Below are positions 11,231-31,700 of a DNA stretch of 64,000 nt, piece by piece (the first letter of the stretch is position 1; every line of letters starts with the position of its first letter). Location: NCBI GenBank assembly GCA_009829735.1, contig CM020620.1:18124354-18188353 (forward strand), written 5' to 3'. The notes under the pieces were generated by a model. The model did not search any database. It worked only from the letters and a program-made list of their open reading frames with translations, and was not told the origin of the DNA. The DNA comes from Pyropia yezoensis (taxonomy: Eukaryota > Rhodophyta > Bangiophyceae > Bangiales > Bangiaceae). A program made the position numbers and the translations under genes.

Positions 11231-11503
11231 CTCAAGCGTCTAAAGCAAAGTTTCTCTTGCGTAAAACGAGCAGTGTCCCCTTGAACCCATAGGGCCGTTT
11301 CATCCCCGCCCGGCGTTGACGCCACGTTTTGGACCGACGAGTCAGGTGGGGTAAATACGACTTGGGTCCCTTAGAATCATTTGTAGACGCAGTAGGTACA
11401 GGTACAGTAGGGCCCCGAAAGATCTTCGAGAAGCCCAGCGCAGAGGCAATCGAACATGAACTATCGGGCCGACGGGGAGTGGACCTCTTGGGCCCGCCCC
11501 CCC

Positions 11504-13219
11504 TTACTCTTTTCCCAGGGGCTCGGGGTCCTCAGGGCCATCGTTCTCGGGATCATCACGGTCCGCCTCGTCGTCCGAGAGGTTGATCCCCTCGCACAGC
11601 GCCTGGAACATAGCGATCCGAGTCTTACGATGGAACTCGTGGTCCGCCTTAGGATGGACCTCGGTAGACTGACTCCGGCCCCGTTTGGCTCCACGGAAAT
11701 TATCACGGGCCTTCTGGACCATCTTGCGTTGCGCCTCCGTCAGGGTGGGACATTGGTGGGCCATGTGGCCCGTCTCCCAACAGAGGTAGCACCGAAAGGG
11801 GAGTCGACTGTCCAGAGTTCGGCCCCTGACATACGAAACCGTGGGGGCCTTGAACCCATACGTCCTGCCAGGGTCAATCTTGTCCGTTTCCTTTCCCACG
11901 GGCCGCTGCAGAACCGTCGTAGGGCCCTTCGAGTCCACCGTCAGCAGCGGTTCAGAATCAGTGGGCTTCCGGGGCTTGAAGTGAACGGGCCGACGTGTGG
12001 CCCCAGATGTAGAGCCCCGCGAAGAAGACGCTTGGCCCTGGGCCATCTTGATCACGTCGGTGGCCGCCTTGTGCTTCCCAGAAGCAAAGGTAACGAGCTG
12101 CTGATAGGTCCGTTTCGGACCGTTAAAGACGTACGCATCGGTCCGTAGGAACTCAGGGAGCCCTTGGATCAGTTGCTGCTTCATGGTCCCTTCCGAGTGG
12201 ATGTTTCCAACCGACTCGGTGAGCCAACGGAGCCGCAGAGCAAAGGCCTCAATAGTCTCATCCGGTTCCTTTGTGGCCCTGCTAAACTTGTCCTGGGCCA
12301 CAGCGAGCGCATGGGGTTCAGCATAGGTCTCCAGGAACCAATTGACGGCCTCTGGGTAACTAGTGATCGAAGCGCCCCCCGACGCGCTTGTGGAATCAGG
12401 TAGGGCCCGTGAGTACCGCAACTCCGCGTCGCCCGAGAGGAACTGAGGGATCACATAAAGGGCCATACCTATAGAGACCCCATTGTCGTTACAGGCCTTC
12501 ACCAGCTTACGGAGCCAGGTAAACACTTTGAGCCCATCCTTACCGGAGAAGTTCGGATAACCGGCAAAAGAGTGTCTCATGTTACGGGCCACACGGCCCA
12601 TCTTCTTCGCTTCACGGGTCCCATACGTGTTCTTCTTGTTCAGGAGTCGATAGGTACGATTGTCTAGGACCTTGGAAAAGCGATCATCGGAACAGCTAAG
12701 GATCTCGGGGCCAGGTCGCACGCCATCCTGCGCGCCGGTGGACTCCGCACTAGAGGAAGAGGACCCAGGGTTCCCGGAAGATGATGAGGAGCCCGATGAA
12801 CGGCGACGTCGGGACCGACGGCGACGGGAACTAGTACGATGGGACCGTCGGGAACCAGGGGATCGTTCGGGACCGACGGACCCACCCTGACCAGCGGGGC
12901 TCTGGCTCAGGGCCTGCGATACTGTGGCCAAAATCTCGTCACGGAAAGTCTCATGGACCGAATGAAGCTCTGTCGGCCCGGAATCTTCTGCGGGACCGGG
13001 GACACGGGTTCCACCTCGAACCCCGGTCCCTTCGTCTCGACGCGAATCAGAAGGAATCACAGCCGGCGGCGTCTGACGCCGGCGCGGAATACCAGAGGGC
13101 CCGCCTCCGACGTGAATCTGAGGACCACTAGGGGCCCCACGATTACGACCAGCGGGTGTCACCATCGATGCGTCCGAGGGCGCACCGCGGCCCCGCCCAC
13201 CAGGGGTAAGGTCCGCCAT
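11504..13219 (-). CDS. gag: Gypsy-1 gag
   Basis: Gag protein of the chromovirus, 571 residues from the ATG at 13219, whose context GCCAACATGGC matches that of Gypsy-2 gag. The N-terminal third is Gly/Ser/Arg-rich, with an RRRSRRRR-type basic stretch. The middle is the retrotransposon Gag (capsid-like) domain with a conserved Trp-Phe-rich helix block. Near the C-terminus is one CCHC zinc knuckle (CYLCWETGHMAHQC, around 11790-11750). Gag packages the RNA into cytoplasmic particles. It ends in an acidic tail. The frame is uninterrupted. Confidence 0.9.
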   Translation of the reverse strand: MADLTPGGRGRGAPSDASMVTPAGRNRGAPSGPQIHVGGGPSGIPRRRQTPPAVIPSDSRRDEGTGVRGGTRVPGPAEDSGPTELHSVHETFRDEILATVSQALSQSPAGQGGSVGPERSPGSRRSHRTSSRRRRSRRRRSSGSSSSSGNPGSSSSSAESTGAQDGVRPGPEILSCSDDRFSKVLDNRTYRLLNKKNTYGTREAKKMGRVARNMRHSFAGYPNFSGKDGLKVFTWLRKLVKACNDNGVSIGMALYVIPQFLSGDAELRYSRALPDSTSASGGASITSYPEAVNWFLETYAEPHALAVAQDKFSRATKEPDETIEAFALRLRWLTESVGNIHSEGTMKQQLIQGLPEFLRTDAYVFNGPKRTYQQLVTFASGKHKAATDVIKMAQGQASSSRGSTSGATRRPVHFKPRKPTDSEPLLTVDSKGPTTVLQRPVGKETDKIDPGRTYGFKAPTVSYVRGRTLDSRLPFRCYLCWETGHMAHQCPTLTEAQRKMVQKARDNFRGAKRGRSQSTEVHPKADHEFHRKTRIAMFQALCEGINLSDDEADRDDPENDGPEDPEPLGKE

Positions 13220-13343
13220 GTTGGCCCTGCGGCAATCGACCTGAACCAAAGGGTACCTCAAACAGGGTCAAGGGACCAAAAGAACCACAGCGCCACCAAG
13301 GATAGGAGAGGGCCTTCCCGATAAGAGAGAAGAATATGGCCCT

Positions 13344-13360
13344 CCCCTGTTGCTCCACCA
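13344..13360 (-). promoter_or_regulatory. Gypsy-1 primer-binding site
   Basis: On the minus strand, four bases after the 5' LTR, lies TGGTGGAGCAACAGGGG, complementary to a tRNA 3' end finishing in CCA. The same 17-mer with one base changed lies in the same place in Gypsy-2 (26368-26384). This is the site where the primer tRNA would start minus-strand cDNA. The tRNA would begin GGAGCA; I cannot name it. Confidence 0.75.
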
Positions 13361-13364
13361 AAGA

Positions 13365-14064
13365 TGTAGCGTTATGGCCCTTCTGGCCCAGGGTCCACAC
13401 ACACAAGAAACCACAACGGGGTCAGGAAGGAACAAGTAAAGGTCCCAGCGTGATCCACTCGCCCGCCCCTTCAGAGGCAAGGGTAAAAGGACAAAAGCCC
13501 GAGGGAGCAAGAACCCAAAGAACCGTTGATTTTACAAGTTGGCCCCGGGGAGACCCCGGAGCACCCCTCAAGAACCCCCCCCTTGGCCCCTCCAGGGGCC
13601 TAGAGCGGGGCCCCTAGAGGGCGCCTCTGGCGGGTCGAGCGCCAGCAAGGCGTCTGACCCCCACCAGGTCCTCCAGCGCATCCCCTACACCGGGGTTACA
13701 CTGGGGCGCCGAGGGTCACCAAGCAACCCCCGGTCGCCAAAAACAAGCGAAAAGCAAGCGAAAATCCCCCCCCACACAGATGCCAATCCCCGAAAAAAAC
13801 CCAGTGGGAAAAAGGGGAAAGACATGAAAACACGCAGTGAAAACAAATACGAAACAAATGGCCACAATGGCCAGTAAGGCCACCTCCACCGGCCAAATCC
13901 GCCTCCCTGGGTGGGACCAATCAGGATCCCGGGTGTGTCGCCACAGTCCCGAGTCACTGACAGAGGGGGCCCCGGCAAGAGAAGGGCTCCACGGAGGATA
14001 GCCCGCCGGGTCCCAAGTCACCTCCCCAAGGGCCCGCCTGTCCCCAAAGGCTCAGAACGCCACA
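13365..14064 (-). repeat. Gypsy-1 5' LTR
   Basis: A 700-bp partner of 3218-3917, with the same termini. It is followed by the target duplication AATGC at 14065-14069. In the minus orientation this is the upstream LTR, so the element's own promoter should lie in it. The few differences from the partner copy are scattered and fit ordinary ageing after insertion. Confidence 0.95.
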
Positions 14065-14882
14065 AATGCCACCACGTCTGTTACAGGGGCGTCGCACGTT
14101 TGCTTCCCACGGGGAACCCAGACCGCGGCGGCTGCACCTGGCAGGAGCACTGTCAGACCATGTTGGCCACCTGCGGGAGCCGCCGGGCTAACTGTGTGAC
14201 AGGCAAGGGCGGAAATAGATTGAAAGCGCCCGAGGTGGGCGACATCCGCGAGTGGCGTTGGGATGGGGATGATGGTCCCATTGTCGATGGCGTCTCGTGC
14301 GGCTGCCGTCGAGATGGTCGATACCACCGCGACCAAGCACACCGCCGATAGCGCTCCTGAAAATCAGGGGTCCGCTTTCAAGCGCGCACGGCCACGACCG
14401 AGTTGGAGAGGAGGTCTGAGATGTGCGGTACACATTGGTTGTAGAAAAAAGTACACAAAATCCGCAGAAAATAGTCTGGAAGAATGGGGCTGGGAGCAGA
14501 GCGAAGCACTGGACGAGGCGCGAGGGTCAGCACCATGCGGGCGCAGCGTGCGACGCAACGAATGGCAATAATTGCTCACCTGTGCGTGGATGCGGTAATT
14601 TTGGTCAGACTGGAACGGGCCGTCGTCCCATGCTAGAACGCGATTGGGGCAGGCACTATGCGGGACGATCCTGACCGTTGTAGAGGGCATCCCGCCGTCG
14701 GTCGCCGCCACTGCCCCCGCTGCCGCTGCTGCAGTCGCCCACATCGCGGGCGACGACGTGCTCTTCGAGTCGGGTCGGCTGGGCGGCATCAGTAAACCCT
14801 CGGTGCTCCTGGCAACGTCCCCAGCCGCGGTGGCCACTTTGAGGGAGGACGGCGTAGAGCAGGCCCTCCCGGCCGTGTACAT
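14065..14882 (-). CDS. Candidate host gene, 5' part, with an intron
   Basis: Upstream portion of the minus-strand gene split by Gypsy-1; product not recognised. A Ser/Ala-rich first exon candidate (from 14882) ends at a donor-like CACAG|GTGAGC near 14577. An acceptor-like TTTTCAG lies near 14362, giving a possible intron of about 215 bases. Just downstream, near 14360-14290, is a hydrophobic Ala/Val-rich stretch that resembles a signal peptide or membrane anchor. After this the frame stays open to the insertion point at 14069. I could not make the phase of both exons agree with this stretch, so exact boundaries are uncertain. Together with 1419-3217 it suggests a secreted or membrane protein inactivated by the insertion. 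Confidence 0.33.
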
Positions 14883-15617
14883 ACCTATGGTGGGGGCCGC
14901 GGGGAGCAGCTGCCGCCGCCGCCGCAGCCGCTACCGCCGCCGCCGCCGACCCGCCTAATGGACGTGGGCGGCGGCCGCTGGGAGGTGTCCACGACATGCT
15001 GGTCGTGCTAGATCGGTGGGCACAGCGGTGAGGCCGTTCGTTACAGAACGCCAGGCGGGGGGCGGGAGAGCGAGAGGCGAGGGAAGGAAAGCGACAAGTG
15101 CGAGGGGGGGAGAGAATGGACCCACCATGGAATGGTGACGACTGTGGCCTGCATGCCCAACCCACTGTCAGCTGAATGAACTTGCGTGTATATTACGTCC
15201 TCTGGGCTACATTATTCTACGCGCTTTCCTGGAATGGTACATCCTTCCGCAGAGGGTGCCGCCGCCGCATCGGCGCTTGCCGCAGCAAGCGCTGGCGCCG
15301 TTCCTGGTATTACGCACACGGCTTGTTAGGGATGCCTGATCATCTTTCTATGTTGGGCCATCTCGTCACATTGCCGCACCCTGCAGCACCGTTAGTACAC
15401 TCTGAGTACAGCGTATCTAACAAGCTCATGTGGCTATCAACCAAAAGGGACGCGCAGTAGTTTGCGCTGGGTAACTCTAAAAGTGTCAGCCAATATTGAT
15501 GTCTAAAAAAGCCAACTTTCCAACACAGCAATATCAGTTTTTGGACCCTGCTGACTTCTTGAGATAGAGTCGAAAAAATCATCGTTCGCATCATGCCGCT
15601 TGAGTCCCTGTCCCATT

Positions 15618-15732
15618 GTGCGTCCCGTAAAAAGTGGACGTGCACAGGTCGTTCAGTGTGGATTTGATTGGTCCAGTGGCCGATATTTGACTTGATCACG
15701 ACACGAGCACGTCCACTTTTTACGGGACGCAC
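15618..15732. repeat. Short inverted-repeat element (MITE-like)
   Basis: Two perfect 26-bp arms (15618-15643 and 15707-15732) face each other around 63 bases. Each starts GTGCGTCCCGT from the outside. The same 11-base word occurs at about 62102-62112. No clear target duplication is visible at the ends. This looks like a miniature DNA-transposon relic, but a plain fold-back repeat is possible. Confidence 0.6.
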
Positions 15733-15956
15733 TATAACGCGCACGTGAAGGTGAAGGATCGTGATCACGCAGGTCCAACAACTCCTATATTGATGCACGT
15801 TGCATCTTAGCAGCCGCGAAGGCAATCCTGGCAAGTCGATGTTCGAGAATCTCTTCCTCACAGCTGGAGAACGTTACAAAAACAGTCATGTTGGTTATTT
15901 CAAATGATCTGGCCGCACCAACTGCCTGCTTAATGTTGTACAGTGGGTTTGAATAA

Positions 15957-16035
15957 TGCTGACTTCTGAGTTCTGCCCTAGGGGACCGAGACTGACTCTC
16001 TCATGTCTCGGTCTCGGGCCAGGACAAAACTCAGC
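15957..16035. repeat. Imperfect inverted repeat
   Basis: The core arms GACCGAGAC (15984-15992) and GTCTCGGTC (16005-16013) are perfect. Homology extends outward imperfectly to about 38 bases per side, with TGCTGA and TGAGTT words mirrored. It could fold into one long hairpin. Origin unknown. Confidence 0.45.
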
Positions 16036-16228: not shown

Positions 16229-16696
16229 TGTGGCAAAAACCACTCGGACACGCGACACCCAAGTTGGGGCGGTGCGCAAGGGCTGCCTCCCGTGTCGGGG
16301 GAACGGGAAGAAGTGCAAGTCGCACACACTCTGTCCCTGTTGTGGGGCAATCCCCCCACTAACAAACAAGAAGATGGTGCGTGGGCCAACAGTTTCTTGG
16401 TCGGGACGGGGACGCAGGGCCAAGCCCCGCTGTCCCTCCCCTTATCCCCCCAGGGTCCCCTCAGAATCTCGCCACTCAAAATCTCCCACCCCAGCACCTG
16501 CCCACCGGGCCACACGAAAATTCAAGACGATAAATGCAGAAAACCCTCAAATCCACGTTGGATTTACTACTAAGCTAACTATCCCAAACTTAGGGAATAT
16601 GGACCCAAAGGCAGGGGGAGGAACGGGTAAGGCTAGTGGCCTGCCGCCCCTTGCATGGCACGTGTTGCCCCCTACCTGGGTGTCAATACTGCCACA
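16229..16696 (-). repeat. Solo LTR of the Gypsy-2 family
   Basis: A 468-bp copy of the Gypsy-2 LTR, beginning TGTGGCAAAAACC and ending ACTGCCACA in plus orientation. It is clearly more diverged from the Gypsy-2 LTRs than they are from each other. The flanking pentamers differ (GTGAG on the left, AAGGC on the right), so there is no target duplication. The right side passes directly into truncated copia sequence. The missing duplication suggests recombination between two separate insertions, with loss of the DNA between. Confidence 0.9.
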
Positions 16697-17478: not shown

Positions 17479-17947
17479 TGTGGCAAAAACCACAAGCACA
17501 CACGGCAACCAAGTTGAAGCGGTGTGCTAGGGCTGCCTCCCGTGTCGGGGGAACCGGAAGAAGTGCAAGTCGCACACACTCTGTCCCTGTTGTGGGGCAA
17601 ACCCCCCACGGACAAACAAGAGGATGGTGTGTGGTCCAACAGTTTCTTGGTCAGGACGGGGACGCAGGGCCAAGCCCCGCTGTCCCTCCCCTTATCCCCC
17701 CAGGGTCCACTCAGAATCTCGCCACTCAGAATCTCCCACCCCAGCACCTGCCCACCGGGCCACACGAAAATTCAAGACGATAAATGCAGAAAACCCTCAA
17801 ATCCACGTTGGATTTACTACTAAGCTAACTATCCCAAACTTAGGGAATATGGACCCAAATGCAGGGGGAGGAACGGATCAGGCTAGTGGCCTGCCGCCCC
17901 TTGCATGGCACGTGTTGCCCCCCTACCTGGGGGTCAATACTGCCACA
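17479..17947 (-). repeat. Gypsy-2 3' LTR
   Basis: A 469-bp LTR, TGTGGCAAAAACC...ACTGCCACA in plus orientation. Its short terminal inverted repeat TGTGGC/GCCACA also ends the copia LTR. It is nearly identical to 26387-26855, and a third, older copy stands alone at 16229-16696. Confidence 0.96.
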
Positions 17948-18262
17948 CTCCCCTCTCGTCAGTTCCGACCGACCCGGTCGGCCCTGTGAGGGGGTGCGTA
18001 AATGCACGTCTCGGCGTTGGGGGCGCGACTTGCTGTCCCCCATCGAGTACGTAACACGGATGTGGAGGCGGTCACGTTGACCGCCCCTCTCCTCAAGCTT
18101 GCCCACTCGGCAGCTTGCTCTCCTCAGCTCACACTTCACCATCACCACCACCTCCCCTTCACCTTCCACTGGGCCGCCCCACGCTGGGGAGGCCACCCGT
18201 ATACCCACGATCCGAGTCCCCCTCAACTCGAGGCGGGTCTCGTGCTGCGATAGCCAGAGCGT

Positions 18263-18283
18263 CTCTCCCCAACTTGGGGAGAG
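18263..18283 (+). promoter_or_regulatory. Perfect hairpin just before the antisense ATG
   Basis: Arms CTCTCCCC (18263-18270) and GGGGAGAG (18276-18283) around loop AACTT; the stem ends two bases before the ATG at 18286. It belongs to the element-wide hairpin family. In the antisense mRNA it would be a stable stem at the start codon and could affect initiation or bind a protein; that role is inference. Confidence 0.6.
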
Positions 18284-18285
18284 CC

Positions 18286-20229
18286 ATGGCGACTCCGGGA
18301 GTGGAGACGGACTCTCTTGACGAGCGCATGGAGGACACCTCCTACGGGGCAGCACCCGCCGGGACTTCCGGCGGGGGCTCCGCGATCGCTCCGGGGGACG
18401 GGACTCCCGCGTCACCCGGCTTTGGGTTGACGGCGGGGTCTCCCCCAGTGGCGGGACAAGTTGTCCCGCGTGAGGCCTTGGGGCGGTGGTTTTACCCCGC
18501 TTGGCCTCTCTATGAGGAGGGGCTGACTGTTCTTCGCTGTGGCCGACTTGGCGCAGCGATGGGCCGGGTATGGGACCGCCTACGGGAGAAGTATCCCCGT
18601 AGGGTCGGGTTCCCTGCCGGCTTCAGGACGGACCAGTTTGCCTTCCTGGACAATGAGGAGGTTGAGGACGTTCAGCGCGCCAAGGCCATGGTGGACCGCG
18701 GGGGAACTATCCCGGGTCCCGGCGACTTGCCGACCTTCACGTGGGACGCTGTGGCAACTCGCCCACCGTACCTCCACGAGGCCGATCCGCACACTCATCA
18801 CTTTGATGTGCGGATGGAGAAAGACTTCCGGCGAGGTCCCTACTTGGTGACCTCGGCTCAACTTGAGTTTCCTCAACAGTCTGCTGCCAGTAAGGAGCAG
18901 TACTATCCGAAGAAGCCCGAGTGGTGGCCTCAAGTTGAGGTCCCCTACGGGTTCCCGGCGTTGTTGCCACGGTTGCTTGACCACTTCGGCTCCGTCATGT
19001 TGACGGCTGCCCCTGATCACCTGGTGTGGGCCATGTTGGCCACCCAGTGGCTCCTCGAGGTCATGTCGACCTGGGTGTCCTGTGTTCAGCGGCGGGGGAT
19101 GCTCTGGCATCTCCCCCTCCGGCTCCTCCAAGGTTTGGAACAGCTCACCCCTCAGCTAGTTGCTGAGGGGTGCTCATCAGGACAACTCACTCTACTTGAG
19201 GAGATGCTCCGGCTCCATAAGTTTATCGAGTGGGAGAGCATTGAGCACAAGTTGCGCCGCCCCACTCGTGGGCCCAAGGACGATGGCGCACTTCGCCAGT
19301 TCGTGTGGGTCGCTCGTGAACTTCACGACGGCCGTGTGGTCCTACGAGAGGGGTTGGGCATCGGGGACTACCCGTATGCCCCGGGGGTGGATCGCCACAC
19401 TGCGCCACCCCCGGACAAGCCCATAGTTATGGCCGTGCCGTCCTATGATGACCATATGACTCAACCCACTGCGGGGGCCCCAAGTCGGGGTCGCAGTTAC
19501 ACCCGGGTACCGCCACCTCGGCGGGCCCCTCCGCTTCCTCCTGTTCCTTTCCAACCTCACGGGAACATCCCGATCAGCGTGGCCGTGGAGTCTTCCACCC
19601 CGGTGTCCCCCAACTTGGGGGCCACCCTCCTGACGGTATACCCCAAGTTGGTGTTGCCGCCCACGCCTCTAACCTCAGAGATGATGATCACCACGTTGAA
19701 GCGCACCATTTCCTGGTTGGCCGCGTCGACCGCAACCCTACAGAGTTCCGAGACTCCTCAACTTGAGGAGCGCGTTCGTACTGCAGTGGCGACCGCGAGT
19801 TGCGATTCGGTGGCGGAGTTTATGACAGCCGAGTTGGCTCGCATTGGGGCTATTATGCCCCAGCCAGCCCCACTTGGGCGTGGCAAACGTCGCGCGAGCC
19901 GGGCATACTCGCCTCCTCGCCGTCGTCGCCGACACTCGCGGCGATCTCCTTCCGTATCGGAAGACGAGTTGTCTTATTCCGTTTCGGAGTCCTCTACCCC
20001 GTCGGAGACGGAGTCTGTCCGGCGTCTGCGTCGCAAACTTGCGCGCAAGACCAGGCAGAAGAGTGGCCACGGTCGGCGCCACTTGCGCGACCGTGAGGGA
20101 CGCGACGGTTCCGACTTGCAGCCGCCGCCCCCTCCAACAAGTGGAGACCGTTATCGGCGTGGGTCTCGCCGCTCGCCTCCACGTGAGGGCGAGGGCCGTG
20201 GAGTGGGAGAGTCTAGCATGCGTGCCTAG
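18286..20229 (+). CDS. Antisense accessory gene of Gypsy-2
   Basis: A 647-residue uninterrupted frame on the strand opposite to gag-pol, lying between pol and the 3' LTR. The ATG at 18286 has a strong context (GAGCCATGG); an open stretch upstream lacks another ATG. The N-terminal third is Gly/Ser/Pro-rich. The middle (about residues 60-360) is a folded-looking region with many Trp and Leu, including PEWWPQVEVPYG, which matches the Gypsy-1 antisense product. Next is a Pro-rich linker. The C-terminal 130 residues are Arg/Ser-rich, with RS and RRRRR stretches like splicing-factor RS tails and likely nuclear localisation. I know no family for it. Possible roles are RNA binding, control of silencing, or regulation of sense transcripts; none is shown. 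Confidence 0.72.
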   Translation: MATPGVETDSLDERMEDTSYGAAPAGTSGGGSAIAPGDGTPASPGFGLTAGSPPVAGQVVPREALGRWFYPAWPLYEEGLTVLRCGRLGAAMGRVWDRLREKYPRRVGFPAGFRTDQFAFLDNEEVEDVQRAKAMVDRGGTIPGPGDLPTFTWDAVATRPPYLHEADPHTHHFDVRMEKDFRRGPYLVTSAQLEFPQQSAASKEQYYPKKPEWWPQVEVPYGFPALLPRLLDHFGSVMLTAAPDHLVWAMLATQWLLEVMSTWVSCVQRRGMLWHLPLRLLQGLEQLTPQLVAEGCSSGQLTLLEEMLRLHKFIEWESIEHKLRRPTRGPKDDGALRQFVWVARELHDGRVVLREGLGIGDYPYAPGVDRHTAPPPDKPIVMAVPSYDDHMTQPTAGAPSRGRSYTRVPPPRRAPPLPPVPFQPHGNIPISVAVESSTPVSPNLGATLLTVYPKLVLPPTPLTSEMMITTLKRTISWLAASTATLQSSETPQLEERVRTAVATASCDSVAEFMTAELARIGAIMPQPAPLGRGKRRASRAYSPPRRRRRHSRRSPSVSEDELSYSVSESSTPSETESVRRLRRKLARKTRQKSGHGRRHLRDREGRDGSDLQPPPPPTSGDRYRRGSRRSPPREGEGRGVGESSMRA

Positions 20230-20340
20230 TTGGCAGCTGCCTTTGTTGTGAGAGTGTGAGGGTTAGGGCTGTAGTTAAAAGCCACTCTGCGTACCACTTC
20301 GACTTGAAGCACTCTCTTGGCACTGTTACTCGGCCTTCCC

Positions 20341-23300
20341 TCACGTTGAGGGAGGGCTGTTAGGGTCTATCTCATTCCGGGCACAGTACGCCCGGACCTT
20401 CTCAGCGGGAAGGTCCTCCACATACTCCCACGTATCATCCTTGGCTTTGTAGCCAAACCAACGCACCCTCAACATGAGGCGGTCAGTGTCTTCATCCCAT
20501 CCGTGGTCGATGTACTTATCGAACACGTACTCCTGTGGGCCCTGTTTGGCCGCAGGCAGTGAGGGGAGGCGCCACGATTCCAACGCACGCGCCCAAGCTG
20601 GGTCTCCTGCAGGCGGTGGTGCAACTTTGACCACGTCCTGTCCGTTCACTGTGCGGACCCCATCATAACTTTCGATGGTGAAGCGCCGCCCATCAGTACG
20701 AAGGACCTGGTACGGTCCCTTCGTCTGGAATACCAGCTTACCCCCAGTTGGGGTGTGCGAGTGTACCAGCACCCAGTCACCCTGCTCGGGGACATGTTTA
20801 GCATTGCGCACCTTTTTGTCAAAGGTACGCCTGTAGCGCTTTTGTGCTTTGTCCATCTCAGCCCTGACTTTAGGGATGAGGTTTTCAAGCCTAGCGGCGA
20901 ACTCCGCCTTACTCTCAGTAGGAGTAGGCGTACTGCCACCATCCTCCCTAGTTGGGAGCGACCGCCGCACGGCAATAGACCGCACGCGACGGGGGGTCAC
21001 AAAAGCGAGGGGTACTTCCCCTGTAGATGAGTGAACCTGCGAATTGTAGGCAGTAGTAAGGATAGAAATGTATTGGTCCCACGTCTTTACGTGCTCACTC
21101 ACATAGTGGCGTAGCTGCCTAACAATAGTTTTGTTGAAGCGCTCCACCTGCCCATTAGTTTGTGGGTGGTAGGGGGTGGCATAGTTTGCCTTAACCCCCA
21201 ACATATCCAGCACTCCCTGAAACAATACGGACGCAAACTGCGGTCCATTGTCCGATAGTGTACTATCTGGAATGCCATACGCGGCAACCCAGTGATCTAG
21301 GAAGGCTGACACGACCGACATGGCCGTGATCTCTGCCAGTGGGATCGCTCGCGTAAGTTTCGTGAAGCGGTCACAGATGACCAGGAGGTACTGGTTGCCC
21401 TCCTCGGTCACGGGCAGTGGCCCAAGGATGTCCATCGCCAACGCGGCGAAGGGCTCCTTGGCCGGGAACAATAGCATAGCCGTACTAGGCCGCCGTTCCA
21501 TCAGACGATTCTGTGCACAACTTGTGCAGGCAGCCACCCAACTGTACATGTCCACCACCATGGACGGCCAGTAGTACCTGGTCCTCAGGGTCTGGTACAG
21601 TTTACTAGACCCCAGGTGTCCACCCGTGGGAGCGTTGTGCTCCCTTTCAAGGATACTGTCCTTGAGGGATGCGGGGACGACAAGTTGTTCGGTCCCCTGG
21701 AATACCCCCCTCCTCATGAGGAGGCCATCGTCTCCCAGAAAGAAGCGCGTCTCAACCACCGTATCCAGTATATCCCTCTGCGACTTGCAGAAGGGATCCT
21801 CGGCCTGGGCCTTCACCACCTCGTCCAGGGACAGGGGCAAGTACTTCTTGTTCCCTGGCGCCTCGGGGTTCAACGCCTGACCCGAGCGCGTGACTACCCC
21901 CACGATGGGGATGTCCTCATCGACTGGGTTAGTGTCCAGCCCCTCGGTAGGTACCCGAGAGAGGCCGTCGGCAAGGGCATGTTGCCTGCCAGGTCGGTAC
22001 TCAATGTCAAAGTTGAACGGTGCCAGTCGCACCCTCCACCGGTTGAGACGAGTGTTCGTACAGTCCGTCTTAAAGATGAACTGCAACGCGCGGTGGTCAC
22101 AGCGGATGAGGAACTTCTCACCCTCCAGGTAGTGACGAAGTGACGTCACCGCCCACACCACTGCGAGTCCTTCCAACTCGGTGACTCCGTAGTTCTTCTC
22201 GGCCGAGTTCAGCCCCTTACTAAAGTATCCCACCGGCAAGTACTCCTTGTCCGGCTGCTGCTGAAGCAACACACAACCAAGTTGGTCGTAGCTAGCGTCC
22301 ACATCCAGGATGTAGTGGCCTCCCAACCTGGGAATAGCCAAGATGGGGGGCTTCAGCAGAAGGTCCCGAAGAGTCTCAAAGTATTCCTGCTCCACCCGAC
22401 TTGGGGGAGGCAGGTTCTTCGGTAGCGTTGAGCTCACTAGCTCATTCAACGGCTTCGCCACCTTGGCGAAGCCCTTGGTGAAACGTCGGTACACGTTACA
22501 CATCCCGAGGAAGCTCCTCATCTGGGTCTGGGTCCGGAGGTACTGAGCCTTACGAATGGCCCTCAAGTTCTTCTCGTTAACACTGAGACGCCCCGGATGG
22601 ACAACATGTCCCAAGTACTCCACCTCTTGAGTAAAGAGGTGGCACTTACTCGCCTTCAGTGACACACCGGCGTCAGCAAGTAGCTTGAACACCTGGCCAA
22701 GATGGCCAATGTGTTCCTCCGGACTTCGGGAGAACACAATGATATCGTCTAGGTACACAAGACAGATCTGCCACCGTACTCCGGCCAGAATCATGTCCAT
22801 AGCGCGCTGGAAAGTTGCCGGCGCGTTACACAGACCAAACGGTAGACGCTTGCACTGGTAGGTACCACAGTGACAGGTAAAGGTAGTTTTATGCCTGTCC
22901 TCCGGGGCAATGGGAATTTGCCAGTACCCCGCGTTACAGTCCAGGGTAGAGAACACGTTTGCCTCCCCCAGAGAGTCCAGACAGTCATCCATCCTAGGTA
23001 GGGGATAACTGTCCTTCACCGTGCTCTCGTTGAGCTTACGGTAGTCGATACAAAACCGGGGGGTCCCATCAACTTTGGGGACGATAACCACCGGACTCGC
23101 CCACTCGGCGTTGCTGGCCTCGATCACATCGAGGGCCTCCATGCGAGCAACTTGCTCCTTAACGAGGGCCCTTGAACGAGGTCCTCCCCTATACGGTTGT
23201 TGGCGTATAGGGGGTGCACCGGGCTTCAACTCGATCCGGTGTTGGGTGGCTCTCATGAGTCCCAATTGACCATCCCACAGCTTGTGATATTGGTCCAAGA

Positions 23301-24324
23301 GGCGTTCAACTTGAACCCTCAACCTGGGGGGGACACCCTCCATGTTCACATGGGGTCGAGGAGAGGCGGCCGACTTGGTTTGATGCTTCTCCTTTCCGGA
23401 CTTCGGGTCGCTACTTGCGCCCGCGTTGAGGGTGACCGCTACTACCGGTCCCTCGTGTTGGTCGATATAGCCGAACTTGGCTCCCGACTTGAAGTACTTG
23501 GGCGTCGGGCTCAGGTTCATCACCTGGATCCTCCACGGGACTCCGGCTTTGGAGTCCATCGTGCCAAGGGCAACATGCACTTGGTGCTTGCGAGCAAGAC
23601 GGGGGTGAGGGTGCACCAACCCGTTCCCCGTAAAATCAGTTACAACATCAACGTGCGCCACCGAGTTGGGGGACAACGTGACTTTGCGGGCTAAACGCAG
23701 GGTAGCAGTAAACCCTTCCCTCACAGAGCAAACAGGCTTCGACTGTGAGACTGTCACAGGAGCCACAGACTTTCCCTTACCAAGGATGGGGATAGTCTCC
23801 CCATTCATCAACTTGACCCAGTACTCAGGGCCACAAATCAAAGGCACTTGTGTAACAACATAAGGGGTACCCAGAAGCAGGGGTACCGATATATTCTCAA
23901 CTACGCCATAGGTCACGTCGACCTCATGGGTCCCCAACCTAGTTGGTAGGGTCACGGCACCAACGATGGGAAGTACCCCACCATTGATGTCAATCATATG
24001 GTCAGCTTTGGACCTCCAGCGTTGGAGCTTCACCTCCTTTGGTAATAGCGACTTGCGTATCAAGGAGGCTCCTGACCCGGTATCAAGTACGATACGGGTA
24101 CAGCATGCACGGCCGGGGGCAAGTTGCACCCGTCCAGCCACCTGGAAGTTCTCACCCGTCAGCACCGCGATGACCCGACGTGGGTTTACGTTCTTGGGGA
24201 GTCCTACCCGAGGTGGGCGGACTCCCTTAGGTCGCCGCAGTATCCGGCACGGTTGGTTCGTCCTCCTGGCCCACTTGGCCGAGGCTGCCGTTGTGAGCTT
24301 CGGACGACCAGCCCCAACGGTCAT
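20341..24324 (-). CDS. pol: Gypsy-2 pol polyprotein
   Basis: A 1327-residue uninterrupted polyprotein. In order: protease with DTGSGAS (near residue 80), reverse transcriptase with YLDDIIVFS (near residue 530), RNase H, integrase with the HHCC finger, DDE core (SDNGPQF and a later HPQTNGQVER), and a C-terminal chromodomain. Its ATG overlaps the gag stop as ATGA at 24321-24324. Pol is therefore probably made by stop-start reinitiation rather than frameshifting; that is inferred from layout. The C-terminal end lies just before the antisense gene's end, tail to tail, 111 bases apart. Confidence 0.95.
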   Translation of the reverse strand: MTVGAGRPKLTTAASAKWARRTNQPCRILRRPKGVRPPRVGLPKNVNPRRVIAVLTGENFQVAGRVQLAPGRACCTRIVLDTGSGASLIRKSLLPKEVKLQRWRSKADHMIDINGGVLPIVGAVTLPTRLGTHEVDVTYGVVENISVPLLLGTPYVVTQVPLICGPEYWVKLMNGETIPILGKGKSVAPVTVSQSKPVCSVREGFTATLRLARKVTLSPNSVAHVDVVTDFTGNGLVHPHPRLARKHQVHVALGTMDSKAGVPWRIQVMNLSPTPKYFKSGAKFGYIDQHEGPVVAVTLNAGASSDPKSGKEKHQTKSAASPRPHVNMEGVPPRLRVQVERLLDQYHKLWDGQLGLMRATQHRIELKPGAPPIRQQPYRGGPRSRALVKEQVARMEALDVIEASNAEWASPVVIVPKVDGTPRFCIDYRKLNESTVKDSYPLPRMDDCLDSLGEANVFSTLDCNAGYWQIPIAPEDRHKTTFTCHCGTYQCKRLPFGLCNAPATFQRAMDMILAGVRWQICLVYLDDIIVFSRSPEEHIGHLGQVFKLLADAGVSLKASKCHLFTQEVEYLGHVVHPGRLSVNEKNLRAIRKAQYLRTQTQMRSFLGMCNVYRRFTKGFAKVAKPLNELVSSTLPKNLPPPSRVEQEYFETLRDLLLKPPILAIPRLGGHYILDVDASYDQLGCVLLQQQPDKEYLPVGYFSKGLNSAEKNYGVTELEGLAVVWAVTSLRHYLEGEKFLIRCDHRALQFIFKTDCTNTRLNRWRVRLAPFNFDIEYRPGRQHALADGLSRVPTEGLDTNPVDEDIPIVGVVTRSGQALNPEAPGNKKYLPLSLDEVVKAQAEDPFCKSQRDILDTVVETRFFLGDDGLLMRRGVFQGTEQLVVPASLKDSILEREHNAPTGGHLGSSKLYQTLRTRYYWPSMVVDMYSWVAACTSCAQNRLMERRPSTAMLLFPAKEPFAALAMDILGPLPVTEEGNQYLLVICDRFTKLTRAIPLAEITAMSVVSAFLDHWVAAYGIPDSTLSDNGPQFASVLFQGVLDMLGVKANYATPYHPQTNGQVERFNKTIVRQLRHYVSEHVKTWDQYISILTTAYNSQVHSSTGEVPLAFVTPRRVRSIAVRRSLPTREDGGSTPTPTESKAEFAARLENLIPKVRAEMDKAQKRYRRTFDKKVRNAKHVPEQGDWVLVHSHTPTGGKLVFQTKGPYQVLRTDGRRFTIESYDGVRTVNGQDVVKVAPPPAGDPAWARALESWRLPSLPAAKQGPQEYVFDKYIDHGWDEDTDRLMLRVRWFGYKAKDDTWEYVEDLPAEKVRAYCARNEIDPNSPPST

Positions 24325-26267
24325 TCGTTTCCCGCCGACTTGGCGTCCGAATCTGAGGGCGGGGAGGAAGACGACGAGTCCGAGGACGACGTGTCCGCCT
24401 CCTCCGCCGAGGGTGTGGCGACCGCAACGACCGGTCGAGACCCACCCTCGCGGCGTGAACGTACTTCGTTCGTAGCCGACTTTTTACTCGCATTCCTAAC
24501 AAGTTGTTGGATGCGTTTACTCAACTTGGGGCAATCATATGCCCAGTGACCATCGGAGTTGCAGTTCCAACACCGATGGTCCGGTCCGGGAGGGGTCTTC
24601 CCAACTGGGGAAGACGAAGGGATACCCTGGGAAGTTCCCACGGCAGCTACCACCCTCTCCTTGCGGATTCGGCGTGCCTCTCTAAACGCTCTGGCATGGC
24701 GCGCCTCCTCCCGTTCCTTGGCCAACTCGGCCTGACGCTCCTGGCGTTGTTCCTCCCGCAACTTGCGGTAGGCCTCGCCTCTGCGATAGGCGAACCTGGC
24801 CAACTCGGCCAGGGTCGCCCGGGTAGTGTTATGCTCCCGGGTCTCCATCCGGACTGACCAATGGAGTCCCTCCACAAACCGACTCTTCACCACAGCTTGT
24901 GGATGAAGAAACCCACAAAGATTGTTGAGCTTACGGACTCGCTCCGCAAAGGACAACTCGTCCTCCGCCTCTTCCTGATGGGCTTGCGTAAACTCCTCGA
25001 CTTGAGAAGCCAACGCTGCCTCATCAACCATGGCTCTCAACAACCAGTTGACGAGCTCCAAATAGGACGTCACCTCCCCAGCGCCTCCACTTGAGGAGCT
25101 GGGCATGACGGACATAAGTTCTGTCCGTAGGTCGCCCTTCGTAAACTCCTGTAGCATGTAAAAAGCCATGCCTTCACTTATGGCATTGTCGTCACAGGCT
25201 TTTGTGAAACGACGTAGGAACTCAAAGACACGGAGGGGGGGAGTTCCGTCCCACTCCGCTTTGTGCCCAAAAGAATGAAGTGCATTCTTCTTGGCACGGC
25301 CCATGGCTCGGGCCTGGTCAGGACCATACGCCACCGACTTGTTGTGGAGGGCGTAGGTCTCACAGTCAAAGATCCTCTGGTAGACCGGGTTGGCTACCTG
25401 GATCTTGGGCGGCACCTCACGTTGAGGGAACAGCCGCTGTGGCACTGGGGTAAGTTCACTCTCAGTGCCTGTAGTCCGGCGCGGCGCGCTTGGTGTAGCC
25501 GCCGGCGTTTCCGGGGGGAACTCCCCCGTGAAGGGCGTACGCCCCACCGAGTATGGTGTGGCTCCCTCGTTGGGAGTCACAGGTGTCGCCCCCAGTTCGG
25601 GGCGACCAGAGATAGGCGTAAGGGGGGATTCCCCCTGCGCCTGCGGGCTCGAAAGCCCCAATCCGGTCTGGACATTAAGGCCATCTGGCAAACTCGCCAC
25701 AATCTGATTCAGAATAGTATTCGTCATCGTGACCACCAGGTCCGGCAAAGTCTGCCGCAACACATTGGTCGCCTCCCGACGGACAGTTTCCGCGAGGAGT
25801 GGATTGACGACTCCAGTTGAGTCTCGGTCCGCCTCCGGGAGTCCACCTGAGGGGTAACCACGTTCCTCAGGGGTCTCAACCGGGGGCATGGGCGCGAGCC
25901 CATCGCCGACCAACGGAGGTCCACCGTCCTCCGAAAGCCTAGTTGGCGACGACTCCAAGCCAAAGTTGGCTCCATCCCGAGTGGAACCCGCGGGGACAGT
26001 CCTCACCCCTTGGGACGTTCCCGTTGAGTATACCACGCGGTGGCCAGACTTCGGCCCACCCACATCAGAAGTGTCACCCGAGTGAACTCCCGACTGAGTC
26101 GGGGTGGCCTGTTGCCCGCCCGTACTTCCAGTCCTGCTGGCTTGAGGGACCTCTAGTCCCTCTGCGACCCCAGGTAAACCCACCTGTGTCTCACCAGTAT
26201 TCAAAGGCACTGAAGTACGTGCGTCACCCGTGTACTCCCCGGACGACGGGGGGTCCGAGCTAGCCAT
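24321..26267 (-). CDS. gag: Gypsy-2 gag
   Basis: Gag, 648 residues from the ATG at 26267 (context GCCAACATGGC, as in Gypsy-1). The N-terminal 300 residues are Gly/Ser/Thr/Pro-rich. The capsid-like domain follows, with conserved hydrophobic helices and a charged coiled-coil-like stretch rich in Glu, Arg and Gln. One CCHC zinc knuckle (CWNCNSDGHWAYDC, near 24560-24520) is followed by an acidic Ser-rich tail. The stop codon overlaps the pol start. The frame is whole. Confidence 0.93.
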   Translation of the reverse strand: MASSDPPSSGEYTGDARTSVPLNTGETQVGLPGVAEGLEVPQASRTGSTGGQQATPTQSGVHSGDTSDVGGPKSGHRVVYSTGTSQGVRTVPAGSTRDGANFGLESSPTRLSEDGGPPLVGDGLAPMPPVETPEERGYPSGGLPEADRDSTGVVNPLLAETVRREATNVLRQTLPDLVVTMTNTILNQIVASLPDGLNVQTGLGLSSPQAQGESPLTPISGRPELGATPVTPNEGATPYSVGRTPFTGEFPPETPAATPSAPRRTTGTESELTPVPQRLFPQREVPPKIQVANPVYQRIFDCETYALHNKSVAYGPDQARAMGRAKKNALHSFGHKAEWDGTPPLRVFEFLRRFTKACDDNAISEGMAFYMLQEFTKGDLRTELMSVMPSSSSGGAGEVTSYLELVNWLLRAMVDEAALASQVEEFTQAHQEEAEDELSFAERVRKLNNLCGFLHPQAVVKSRFVEGLHWSVRMETREHNTTRATLAELARFAYRRGEAYRKLREEQRQERQAELAKEREEARHARAFREARRIRKERVVAAVGTSQGIPSSSPVGKTPPGPDHRCWNCNSDGHWAYDCPKLSKRIQQLVRNASKKSATNEVRSRREGGSRPVVAVATPSAEEADTSSSDSSSSSPPSDSDAKSAGNE

Positions 26268-26367
26268 GTTGGCTGACGATCCGTATGACACGGTCCAAGA
26301 CCACCGTTCCTCTGAGACAGAGGGCCCCCTACACCCGGGTGCACCCGGAGGTAAAGTTTACCTCTGT

Positions 26368-26384
26368 CCCCTGCTGCTCCACCA
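26368..26384 (-). promoter_or_regulatory. Gypsy-2 primer-binding site
   Basis: Minus strand TGGTGGAGCAGCAGGGG, two bases after the 5' LTR. It is the same site as in Gypsy-1 with one base different, so both families probably use the same primer tRNA although their LTRs are unrelated. Confidence 0.75.
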
Positions 26385-26386
26385 AA

Positions 26387-26855
26387 TGTGGCAAAAACCA
26401 CAAGCACACACGGCACCCAAGTTGGGGCGGTGTGCTAGGGCTGCCTCCCGTGTCGGGGGAACCGGCAGAAGTGCAAGTCGCACACACTCTGTCCCTGTTG
26501 TGGGGCAAACCCCCCACGGACAAACAAGAGGATGGTGTGTGGTCCAACAGTTTCTTGGTCGGGACGGGGACGCAGGGCCAAGCCCCGCTGTCCCTCCCCT
26601 TATCCCCCCAGGGTCCACTCAGAATCTCGCCACTCAGAATCTCCCACCCCAGCACCTGCCCACCGGGCCACACGAAAATTCAAGACGATAAATGCAGAAA
26701 ACCCTCAAATCCACGTTGGATTTACTACTAAGCTAACTATCCCAAACTTAGGGAATATGGACCCAAATGCAGGGGGAGGAACGGATCAGGCTAGTGGCCT
26801 GCCGCCCCTTGCATGGCACGTGTTGCCCCCCTACCTGGGGGTCAATACTGCCACA
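26387..26855 (-). repeat. Gypsy-2 5' LTR
   Basis: A 469-bp partner of 17479-17947, followed by the duplication TCGAC at 26856-26860. It carries one member of the hairpin family in short form (CCC-AAGTT-GGG, 26416-26426). Confidence 0.96.
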
Positions 26856-28750: not shown

Positions 28751-31700
28751 GTCGGCGACCGGAACCACATGCAACTCAATCACACACACTGCATGGCGTT
28801 GTATTTCACAATTTTCCACTGCAACGTACTGCAACATCACGCGAAGACCGTCCATTGATGAAAAAAAAGCACCACTGCAATACATGTCGTGACTTGTGTA
28901 TCGCCGCATCTTCTGGTATTTCCCTGCAACACAGATCCCTCATACACATCACCGCTCCTCACACACTGGCCATCGCGACTCCGACAGTCGCATCGGACAA
29001 GCTGGTCGAGTCACGGACGACGAAACATCGACCTTTCGTTCTCCACGCCTACACGCCCGGCCGCCAGTGTCGTCTTCGTTCAAAATACATCGCTGAAGAG
29101 TCCACCAATTCTTCCGACCCGACCAGATCGCGCGGTGCGGACGTTTCAGGACATCTGATTGACCACACAGCCTCGCCCGAGCCTCCATTCACGCAGGCTA
29201 CTTTTTGGCATCCCCTCCTGAACATGCTCATTTGCGCATCTACCGACGCCAGAGAGCTGATTCTGGACTCAGCTTGTCTTAAATCGCACCAAGATCCTCC
29301 ACAAGTGATGATCCAGTTCCCGGCTCGCACCCCTCCCACATCACCACGCGAAGCATCTCCCGAGAATCGTCCTTGGGGAGGGGCACGGTGCCTTCTGGGC
29401 CCAAGTCAGAGGACTGTCGACTTGGTGCAGTCAGCGAAGAGCAAGAGCCTGTACGTCTGCGTGTCCATGATTGAAGATTTCACCGAATCGCCTCTCCTTA
29501 ACACGTCCTGAGTAATCCCCACCCCTCTTTCCCAGAATTCTCATCTGACTCCCCAAATCCTAGTCAATCGCAGCTCCGGAAGCTCTCTGCCTCCCCGCCC
29601 CCCCGCGCCCCCCCAGCCCTCCCAGTTGCTCATGTTGACCCCCCCTCCAAGAAGGACTCTCAATACATCAATTCAGCTCCGGGAACTTGTTCGGGAGCAC
29701 GAATAACGACGGGAGCAAGACGCTGGGCTCATTCGACAGTGTGATCACCCGCTCCCGGGCAAGCTACTGCGACGTAAAAAAGTATCCCGCAGGGGCATGG
29801 AGGACTGACAAGCTACCAAATCGGTCTCACTTCAGATTTCTTCTCGAGAAAGTTAGTAGACCTTAGTTGTTCATGATAAGTCTCATTCGACACCACTATC
29901 GTGAATTTGCACAGGGGCACCATCGCGTTCTGGTTGGTCGATGTGATGATATGTTTTGAAAACGTTGCATTTCCGCATGTTCTCTTGATAACTTACGTTA
30001 GAATGCTCGAGCACTCCGAAACTGGGGATGCTTCAAGTACGTTTTCGTCAGTATTTGAACTTTCCGTGTGCGCAAGTACAGGATCTTTTGTTGAACTCTC
30101 ACAGAATCTGAACGGAGTGGGCAGATCCTTGCACGGGCTTGCTCCATATGAAGATTATTTGCTTGACCAATCAGCGCAATCCGCCACCACCACTTGGCGC
30201 CCAATGAATGAACTGGTGGCTACCGTCGCTGCGGTGGAGACCGCACGCCATTGGATGCGTGTGGAGCACGAACCGGGCTTGCCACACATTGCCCCCTCCA
30301 CCCACCGCCTTGCCTCCACCTCACCCCCCCCTCCACATCCCGCTCGCACTCTCCTCCATCCCCTGCAAGCGCTCTCCCGGACTGCCCCTTCTCCCACCGT
30401 GTCGTGTCACATTCCTTTCCTGCTCCCCCCCCACCCCCCCCCGTCTCAACCCCCCGCGCCCCCCTTCTCTCCATCTCCTCTCCCACTTCCCCGCACCCAT
30501 GCCCCCCCCCCCACCCCCCCCCCTCTCCACCCCTCGCGCCCCCCCCGCTTCCCTCCATCGCCTCTCCCGCTTCCCCGCACCCACGCTCTTCCTTTTCCGC
30601 GTACTCTTCTTGTCCATCCCTCAGGTATGTGCGGAGGATGCCATGGGTGGTGCATGTGGGTGGATCGGCTGGACGGAGCTGCTCTGGTGATGTACGTGGG
30701 TGTGTGCGCGGGGGGCTGCTCGCGCGGTGGTACGAGAGGGCGTGCGGGAAGGTGGCAGTTGCCGTGGTGGTGGCGGTAGGAAGACGATACACATGGGGGT
30801 GCCATACATGCACAGTTCCATGTCATGCGCTACATTGGCTTGCACTTCCCTGCAACTGCGTTGCGTTGGCTTGCAGCTATCTGCACTATCTTGCATATTC
30901 ACCAGTGTTCTACTCGCTACGCACCTTTCGCAGGTTCTTCTGGATCTTTTTCTTGTCGAGCTGGCGTCCTCCCTTCCCTTTCCACCTCCCGCACCCCCCC
31001 CGCTTCCCCCCATCGCCTCTCCCGCTTCCCCGCACCCACGCTCTTCCTTTTCCGCTTACTCTTCTTTTCTATCCCTCAGGTATGTGCGGAGGATGCCATG
31101 GGTGGTGCATGTGGGTGGATCGGCTGGACGGAGCTGCTCTGGTGATGTACGTGGGTGTGTGCGCGGGGGGCTGCTCGCGCGGTGGTACGAGAGGGCGTGC
31201 GGGAAGGTGGCAGTTGCCGTGGTAGTGGCGGTAGGAAGACGATACACATGGGGGTGCCATACGTGCACAGTTCCATGTCATGCGCTACATTGGCTTGCAT
31301 TTCCCTGCATGTGCGTTTCGTTGGCTTGCAATTACCTGCATGTTTTTGATATTCACGAGTTTTTTGCCCACTACGTACCTTTCGCAGTTCCTTCTCAATG
31401 TGCTCCTTACCGCGCTGGTGTCCTCTCTTCCCTTCCCCTCCGCCCCCGGCTTCCCGGCTCCCCTCCACGCGATTTCACACCCCCCGGCGCCCTCTCCCTC
31501 CTCCCCTTGGTCTTTCGGTGTACCCATCAGGTATGCGCAGAGTATGCCGTGTGTGGTGCATGTGGATGGATGAGCCGGACGCAGCTGCTATGGTGATTTA
31601 GGTGGGTGCGTCGGCGGGTGGATGCGTCTGCTGTGGTACGGGAGGACATGTGGGCGGGAGGCCGCGGGCGTAGTTGTGTGCGTCGGGTGACGGCGAGAAC

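Follow-up and report, generated by a model that had tools for sequence, protein, structure and literature searches.

Strand-symmetric hairpins with family-specific loops in Gypsy-2 and related LTR retrotransposons of the red alga Pyropia yezoensis

Retroviral genomes carry dimer-initiation and psi hairpins, which are small, have self-complementary loops, are bound by nucleocapsid, and are few in number and located in the leader; the nucleocapsid of retroviral Gag binds both the genomic RNA and the complementary DNA (cDNA). In persistent RNA viruses, genome-scale ordered RNA structure places the folding energy below that of shuffled controls across the coding genome. Ty3/Gypsy elements with an antisense open reading frame (ORF) have the order long terminal repeat (LTR)-gag-pol, a reverse transcriptase (RT)-RNase H-integrase polyprotein, a 5-bp target duplication and an antisense ORF near the 3' LTR, and we know of none that carries the hairpin architecture described here. 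A further related system is found in single-stranded RNA viruses and in hepatitis B virus, whose dispersed packaging signals are many short coding-region stem-loops with a common loop motif and varied stems that are read by the coat protein; assembly of this kind has been suggested to be more widespread, for example with Gag-like proteins (PMC6281560). Here we analyse a window of 64,000 nucleotides from Pyropia yezoensis (assembly GCA_009829735.1, contig CM020620.1, positions 18,124,354 to 18,188,353 of the forward strand) and within it Gypsy-2, a Ty3/Gypsy-type LTR retrotransposon at 17479-26855 (coordinates refer to the window unless a locus is named). Gypsy-2 and several related families carry hairpins far above chance, and the stems are conserved in the two families for which usefully diverged copies were compared.

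The window lies in a 107.5-Mb genome of a red alga grown as the nori crop, with three large contigs of 43.59, 34.33 and 29.39 Mb; the published description gives 65% GC and scaffolds of 43.6, 34.3 and 29.4 Mb (PMC7423979). Gypsy-2 is bounded by a pair of LTRs with TG...CA ends (TGTGGCA...TGCCACA) and flanked by the 5-bp target duplication TCGAC, as befits an LTR retrotransposon, and the order of its Pfam domains in pol (RT, RNase H, integrase) is that of Ty3/Gypsy elements. In domain order, duplication length and the placement of an antisense ORF near the 3' LTR it resembles the Ty3/Gypsy elements with an antisense ORF. It is abundant: CCCCAACTTGGGG, which two of its hairpins contain, has 1729 matches in the genome, and the reversed control has 11. 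The protein of the antisense ORF has no Pfam domain, and its sole match among 7999 candidates scored in public contigs is a 96% identical protein of 576 aa. The parts of the element are as follows.

17479..17947, minus strand: Gypsy-2 LTR, the 3' LTR relative to gag-pol (repeat family D1, end motifs, target duplication)
18115..20229, plus strand: antisense ORF, 704 aa counted from a TTG, with the first ATG at codon 58 and a tail rich in Arg and Ser; 16 NASTT hairpins
20341..24324, minus strand: pol ORF, 1327 aa, RT-RNase H-integrase (Pfam), 12 NASTT hairpins plus long variant-loop hairpins in or near RT
24321..26291, minus strand: gag ORF, 656 aa, one CCHC zinc knuckle (Pfam zf-CCHC, 2.2e-05), 14 NASTT hairpins
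26387..26855, minus strand: Gypsy-2 LTR, the 5' LTR relative to gag-pol (repeat family, target duplication)

A further copy of the Gypsy-2 LTR, at 16229-16696, precedes the first LTR of the element by 1250 bp and has flanks that show no clear duplication, and an isolated sequence identical to the LTR end (ATACTGCCACA) near position 33534 is perhaps a decayed LTR remnant.

Defining a hairpin as perfect inverted-repeat arms of at least 4 bp around a 5-nt NASTT or AASTN core, we scanned one LTR and the internal region of Gypsy-2 exhaustively and found arms at 46 of the 159 cores, 44 of these hairpins lying within 18221-25823. This bears out, and on a larger scale, a first-pass annotation made from the sequence alone, which had counted 29 such hairpins; all 16 for which it gave positions exist, though the stem it placed at 19148-19170 is really 11 bp long and spans 19146-19172. 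The 3-bp form that it had seen in the LTR is joined there by a 4-bp form (17563-17575) and a 6-bp variant (17799-17815). Hairpins occupy all three codon frames and code for unlike peptides. None of the 21 cores in the RT-RNase H part forms a NASTT hairpin, and this part holds two 9-bp stems with near-consensus loops. The list below gives the hairpins by loop sequence, with arm length where noted; rows come from the scan, joined or replaced by the comparison of copies where stated.

17563..17575: hairpin gtgc AAGTC gcac, in the LTR
18221..18233: hairpin, AACTC
18263..18283: hairpin, AACTT, 8 bp
18355..18375: hairpin, GACTT, 8 bp
18451..18469: hairpin, AAGTT, 7 bp
18720..18732: hairpin, GACTT
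18928..18940: hairpin, AAGTT
19146..19172: hairpin, TAGTT, 11 bp
19284..19298: hairpin, CACTT
19314..19328: hairpin, AACTT
19478..19490: hairpin, AAGTC
19607..19621: hairpin, AACTT
19754..19770: hairpin, AACTT, 6 bp
19827..19839: hairpin, GAGTT
19867..19879: hairpin, CACTT
19961..19975: hairpin, GAGTT
20076..20088: hairpin, CACTT
20223..20235: hairpin, TAGTT
20297..20309: hairpin, GACTT
20337..20353: variant hairpin, ACGTT, 6 bp
20740..20754: hairpin, CAGTT
20896..20908: hairpin, AACTC
20944..20958: hairpin, TAGTT
21008..21022: hairpin, TACTT
21121..21135: hairpin, TAGTT
21178..21190: hairpin, TAGTT
21514..21528: hairpin, AACTT; outer pair T-A becomes C-G in L056 (scan and copy comparison)
21647..21665: variant hairpin, TACTG, 7 bp; third pair G-C becomes A-T in the derivative (L041) and L059 (scan and copy comparison)
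21777..21791: hairpin, GACTT
21838..21850: hairpin, TACTT
22451..22473: variant hairpin, ACCTT, 9 bp, in conserved coding sequence between RT and RNase H
22620..22642: variant hairpin, GAGTA, 9 bp, inside RT
23145..23157: hairpin, AACTT
23304..23316: hairpin, AACTT
24268..24280: hairpin, CACTT
24333..24345: hairpin, GACTT
24457..24471: hairpin, TACTT
24595..24615: hairpin, AACTG, 8 bp
24628..24640: hairpin, AAGTT
24720..24732: hairpin, AACTC
24756..24768: hairpin, AACTT
24795..24813: hairpin, AACTC, 7 bp; five more pairs past one mismatch
24950..24964: hairpin, AACTC
25084..25096: hairpin, CACTT
25271..25289: hairpin, AAGTG, 7 bp
25512..25528: hairpin, GAACT, 6 bp; AACTC in the shifted register 25515-25527
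25743..25757: hairpin, AAGTC
25780..25792: hairpin, CAGTT
25809..25823: hairpin, CAGTT
26144..26162: variant hairpin, CTCTA, 7 bp; two inner pairs doubly changed in the derivative by eye, with an uncertain alignment (gap), and not scored in the formal count
26237..26251: variant hairpin, GACGA; outer pair C-G becomes T-A in the derivative (copy comparison)
26348..26364: hairpin, AAGTT, 6 bp

That such numbers reflect chance, base composition, codon usage or repeats in the encoded proteins is refuted by the controls. Dinucleotide shuffles of Gypsy-2 (n=60) contained on average 98 cores and 0.48 hairpins, with a maximum of 3, against the 46 observed, and so agree with the first-pass estimate of fewer than one hairpin by chance. 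Shuffling synonymous codons left 0.49, 0.77 and 0.63 hairpins in the antisense ORF, pol and gag, where 16, 12 and 14 are observed. In the window outside the element (1-16000 and 27001-64000) 0 of 281 cores form hairpins. Among thirteen random 10-kb stretches of the genome, the eleven without Gypsy-2 have 5 hairpins at 695 cores, and the two that contain copies of it have 54 of 177 (L036) and 12 of 134 (L045). Protein repeats are ruled out as a source by the use of three codon frames and by the unlike peptides encoded.

There is a marked preference for one kind of loop, and the strict NASTT rule first proposed is too narrow. Of the 317 sites with the loop centre A[C/G]T, 56 are flanked by perfect arms of 4 bp or more, against 79 of 8571 at all other centres; the next-best centres, ACA and ACG, reach 4% and every other centre at most 2.2%. 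Loops with ACGTT, ATGTT and other sequences are used as well, and hairpins with other cores stand about twofold above shuffles (92 against 41). The closing pair is mostly C-G (31 of 46 hairpins). The plus-strand bias, put at about 15 to 5 in the first-pass annotation, comes to 23 to 11 in the full count and does no more than follow how common the cores are, the two orientations forming hairpins equally often (23/79 and 11/42).

Folding and mismatches point to the same symmetry. In a local folding analysis (150-nt windows, pairs at most 30 nt apart, z scores against shuffled controls), Gypsy-2 has a mean z of -2.51 on the plus and -2.52 on the minus strand, its five parts, RT included, ranging from -2.4 to -3.1; the related element Gypsy-1 gives -0.27 and -0.09, and two regions of the window outside gypsy elements score between -0.32 and 0.34. 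When G-U pairs are forbidden, the Gypsy-2 signal becomes slightly stronger on both strands. Pooled over five sequences, stems that carry a single mismatch at the second, third or fourth pair are in no marked excess: those with a sense G-U number 45 against 38.9 expected, with A-C (a G-U on the opposite strand) 65 against 50.6 and with other mismatches 198 against 188.9, beside 236 perfect stems against 31.5; the A-C surplus comes mostly from locus L042 (18 against 7.6). In Gypsy-2, four-pair stems with a single mismatch are commoner than chance to a similar degree whatever the mismatch (other 19 against 5.5, G-U 6 against 1.3, A-C 5 against 1.3). Neither Gypsy-2 nor the pooled sequences show a clear preference for G-U over A-C mismatches, and Gypsy-2 shows none for one loop orientation, which disfavours a strand-specific RNA motif. 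Pairing is essentially Watson-Crick and the structure is strand-symmetric; the scarcity of G-U pairs and the symmetry of the loops speak against a signal that is read only in single-stranded sense RNA. Since both the loop rule and the pairing hold in either polarity, the reader probably meets both strands, be it as genomic RNA and cDNA, as sense and antisense RNA, or as duplex DNA.

The last of these options deserves separate consideration. The palindromes might matter as duplex DNA, being extruded as cruciforms or bound by a dimeric factor such as integrase, a chromatin protein or a recombination protein, and the lack of preference for G-U over other mismatches, the equal use of both loop orientations, and loop rules (C[NASTN]G here, and G[DYRH]C in a second family) that are by inspection their own reverse complements are all consistent with this. 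Arms of 4-7 bp are, however, short for cruciform extrusion, and the version in which the cores mimic integrase targets fails on sequence: the duplications at three insertion sites (TCGAC, CTAAG and GAAGT) match the 5-bp length of the loop, though not its sequence rule. We consider an explanation at the level of duplex DNA possible but doubtful.

That the feature is special to Gypsy-2 is not supported, as three further structured groups were found in a scan of the window and 18 loci. Four of these loci (L042, L045, L046 and L047) are random stretches, and L049, L050 and L051 were hand-picked from the 150 RT matches listed. Strong local folding is seen in L042 (first 6 kb), L046, L047 and the start of L045, as well as in L049, L050 and L051. 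The RT sequences of L042, L046 and L047 are 89-94% identical and L045 is 97% identical to L042 in DNA, so that these four represent one family, referred to below as the 4-nt family. Loci without Gypsy-2 or another structured family have a mean z between -0.6 and 0.4, including the L033 family, L048 and L032, and the architecture is absent from Gypsy-1 as well as from its sister family, L033.

Each structured family has its own loop style. Gypsy-2 favours loops of 3 nt (44 against 10 in shuffles) and 5 nt (36 against 7), and the 4-nt family peaks at 4 nt (72 against 6 in L042, 50 against 9 in L046, 59 against 9 in L047) and shows lesser excesses at 3 nt and at 5 nt. In L050 the preferred lengths are 3 nt (22 against 2) and 4 nt (20 against 5), and in L049 they are 4, 5 and 6 nt (17 against 4, 15 against 3, 18 against 4), with some loops longer still. 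Most hairpins of the 4-nt family are closed by a G-C pair (59 of 72 in L042, 49 of 59 in L047), and their loop tends to D-Y-R-H, which gives the rule G[DYRH]C. Synonymous shuffles of the longest sense ORF fail to explain the preferred loops in L047, L042, L050 and L049, and the pol gene of Gypsy-1 shows no loop excess under the same treatment. Loop length is thus family-specific, and two families have in addition a loop-sequence rule, in both cases strand-symmetric.

In a second alternative, structure is a shield that keeps sense and antisense RNA folded so as to evade duplex formation and RNA silencing, in the manner of the genome-scale ordered structure of RNA viruses. The pervasive local folding of Gypsy-2 on both strands, the presence of an antisense ORF, and the folding of L049 and L050 without a loop-sequence rule would all follow, but the model leaves unexplained why Gypsy-2 and the 4-nt family each keep to a particular loop sequence and closing pair, and we regard this alternative, too, as possible but doubtful.

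The two loop rules also raise the possibility of loop-loop kissing between genomic RNAs, which would multimerise the RNA of each family. Because each rule is its own reverse complement, loops within a family can pair: NACTN and NAGTN loops are complementary at their centre, and DYRH can pair with DYRH. Kissing through two G-C pairs in retroviral RNA is the subject of a title in the reference list of PMC7599994. Two to four mostly A-T pairs would nonetheless be weak, and on this model the stems should tolerate G-U pairs; we judge this explanation quite unlikely.

Conservation among copies argues that the stems are maintained. In 34 aligned pieces of other Gypsy-2 copies, which share ancestry so that variable sites are not independent events, 12 of 440 positions in NASTT stems vary, against 507 of 5466 outside (p=1.7e-7) and 44 of 520 in six-base flanks; relative to trinucleotide-context rates, 16 variable stem sites are observed of 556 where 46.1 are expected. 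The near-identical copies show this conservation and zero double changes. Between Gypsy-2 and its old relatives, 4 of 106 hairpin pairs have double changes compatible with pairing, 16 have one-sided changes and 3 have double changes that break the pair, and the corresponding counts among 3134 control pairs are 76, 1122 and 149; 78% of hairpin pairs are unchanged, against 57% of controls. The diverged copy in L045 has lost several stems through single changes, as expected in the absence of selection after insertion.

A non-autonomous derivative (L041:583-5599), which is represented by 66 exact junction matches in the genome, lacks most of gag-pol and keeps the LTRs, the antisense region and the hairpins. 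Its leader and junction are 81% and 73% identical to those of the window's element, and paired changes are visible between the two, tcaaGga/tcCttga against tcaaAga/tcTttga and Ccccg/cgggG against Tcccg/cgggA. A solo Gypsy-2 LTR is nested in a derivative leader (L054:58-526, reverse strand) with the 5-bp duplication GAAGT, and L053:1-455 is a rearranged element with two diverged versions of one pol segment side by side.

In the 4-nt family, three overlapping comparisons give ratios of double to one-sided changes of 5:19 against 87:2788 in controls (p=0.0008), 3:38 against 71:3800 (p=0.04) and 2:21 against 65:2795 (p=0.10), and stems change less than controls in two of the three (p=1e-9 and 7e-7). 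Together, the shuffle tests, the low variability of stems and the double changes by which pairing is preserved support the first-pass proposal that structure is under selection and one kind of loop preferred, and selection on a structure symmetric between the strands is well supported. Compensatory changes exceed controls in the 4-nt family, give a weak signal in Gypsy-2 and are absent between families.

A purely mutational origin was also weighed, in which template switching by reverse transcriptase perfects imperfect palindromes and the loop style is that of each enzyme. It would account for arms that pair perfectly, for the symmetry between strands and for the lack of hairpins in the other stretches scanned, and switching at quasipalindromes is known in bacteria (PMC7202029). 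Half of the stem mutations should then spread to the partner arm, however, and in the three overlapping comparisons of the 4-nt family about 180 one-sided changes would be expected at control rates where 78 are seen, and about 50 double changes predicted where 10 are found (10 double to 78 one-sided). Over the RT piece, moreover, Gypsy-1, which has no hairpins, aligns to Gypsy-2 without gaps of its own, so that the hairpins there arose by substitutions. Simple template-switch mutagenesis is therefore disfavoured, and we judge it unlikely.

Over longer distances the architecture persists while the positions of hairpins mostly turn over between families. L050 and L049 share more positions than expected: 15 of the 52 hairpins in L050 have a counterpart at the corresponding site of L049, where shifted controls average 4.4 and never exceed 9. 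In the other structured pairs of different families shared positions are within the range of shifted controls, and between families pairing is overall not conserved. One hairpin of L050 (1657-1671) is homologous in place to that of Gypsy-2 at 21514-21528, with identical arms, two pol Cys codons in the arms and a different loop. In a tree of RT sequences the unstructured Gypsy-1/L033 branch nests among structured families beside Gypsy-2 (supports 0.98 and 0.97, basal node 0.53), a placement which suggests that the architecture was gained once and lost once.

We tentatively propose that the hairpins are dispersed, family-specific recognition sites, or 'self tags', for a nucleic-acid-binding protein encoded by the element, most likely the nucleocapsid end of Gag, and would give this a probability of roughly three in ten. 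The family-specific loop style makes an element-encoded reader probable, and if a signal is to be recognised in either polarity, its loop rule has to be strand-symmetric and its stems free of G-U pairs. Under the proposal, the nucleocapsid end of Gag would grip the hairpins of its own family in both polarities, on genomic RNA and on the cDNA complementary to it or on antisense RNA, and each family would thereby package and reverse-transcribe its own copies; many sites would have to act together, as dispersed packaging signals do, with no single position essential. By extension, and as a possibility we put forward with the same reserve, a clade of LTR retrotransposons may write its whole sequence, including the coding parts, in a palindromic code that is strand-symmetric, has dialects peculiar to each family and would serve self-recognition in both polarities, the code changing dialect as families split and having been lost once in Gypsy-1/L033.

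Several observations weigh against the self-tag proposal. A reader of genomic RNA alone predicts G-U pairs and one loop orientation, and neither is found. L049 and L050 show a loop-length preference and no loop-sequence or closing-pair rule, and between L050 and L051 (99.4% identical) hairpin pairs have changed more than controls (8 of 242 against 163 one-sided of 13,224); together these make the self-tag model and the wider idea of a palindromic code slightly less and the shield model slightly more likely. Stems with other cores in Gypsy-2 vary less too (26/502), so conservation is not wholly tied to the NASTT loop. Covariation in Gypsy-2 is weak (4/106 against 76/3134), reaching p=0.04 only as a ratio, with two of the four double changes being the same change, and between families there is no overall covariation, Gypsy-2 with L047 alone giving p=0.04 among eleven comparisons. 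One CCHC knuckle is present by pattern in all four Gags inspected, which come in equal number from structured and unstructured families (two each), and only that of Gypsy-2 passes the Pfam cut-off; the knuckle was accordingly rejected as a correlate of the hairpins.

Retroelements must distinguish their own RNA and cDNA from all else, and the means by which they do so is, to our knowledge, established only for a few retroviral leaders. A family-specific vocabulary of hairpins, and its presence or absence in related families of one genome, make self-recognition directly testable, and if the proposal is correct, synonymous positions in these elements, and parts of their proteins, would be constrained by a second code. 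Elsewhere in the window there are long direct repeats at 30516-31721 and 35151-35632 (spacing about 450 bp and 105-123 bp) and an inverted repeat at 63132-63509 with 114-nt arms, 97% complementary and separated by 150 nt.

In the open-licence PMC literature, judging by the entries returned, we found no description of retrotransposons with palindromic hairpins, dispersed packaging stem-loops, ordered structure or template switching at quasipalindromes that matches Gypsy-2, in keeping with the first-pass impression that no counterpart had been described. Compared with retroviral dimer-initiation and psi hairpins, those of Gypsy-2 number in the tens per element and extend across gag, pol and the antisense gene. 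Like the genomes of persistent RNA viruses, Gypsy-2 folds below shuffled controls throughout (mean z -2.4 to -3.1), but its loop sequence is not free as in ordered structure, and as it is in L049 and L050; the present elements differ further in that both strands are equal, the units measure about 13-30 nt and each family prefers a loop style. Dispersed packaging signals share with Gypsy-2 the many stem-loops, the common loop motif and the differing stems (46 NASTT hairpins), whereas the gypsy hairpins use both loop orientations (23/79 and 11/42) and show no particular tolerance of G-U pairs, and here the carrier is an LTR retrotransposon whose neighbouring families differ in their loops.

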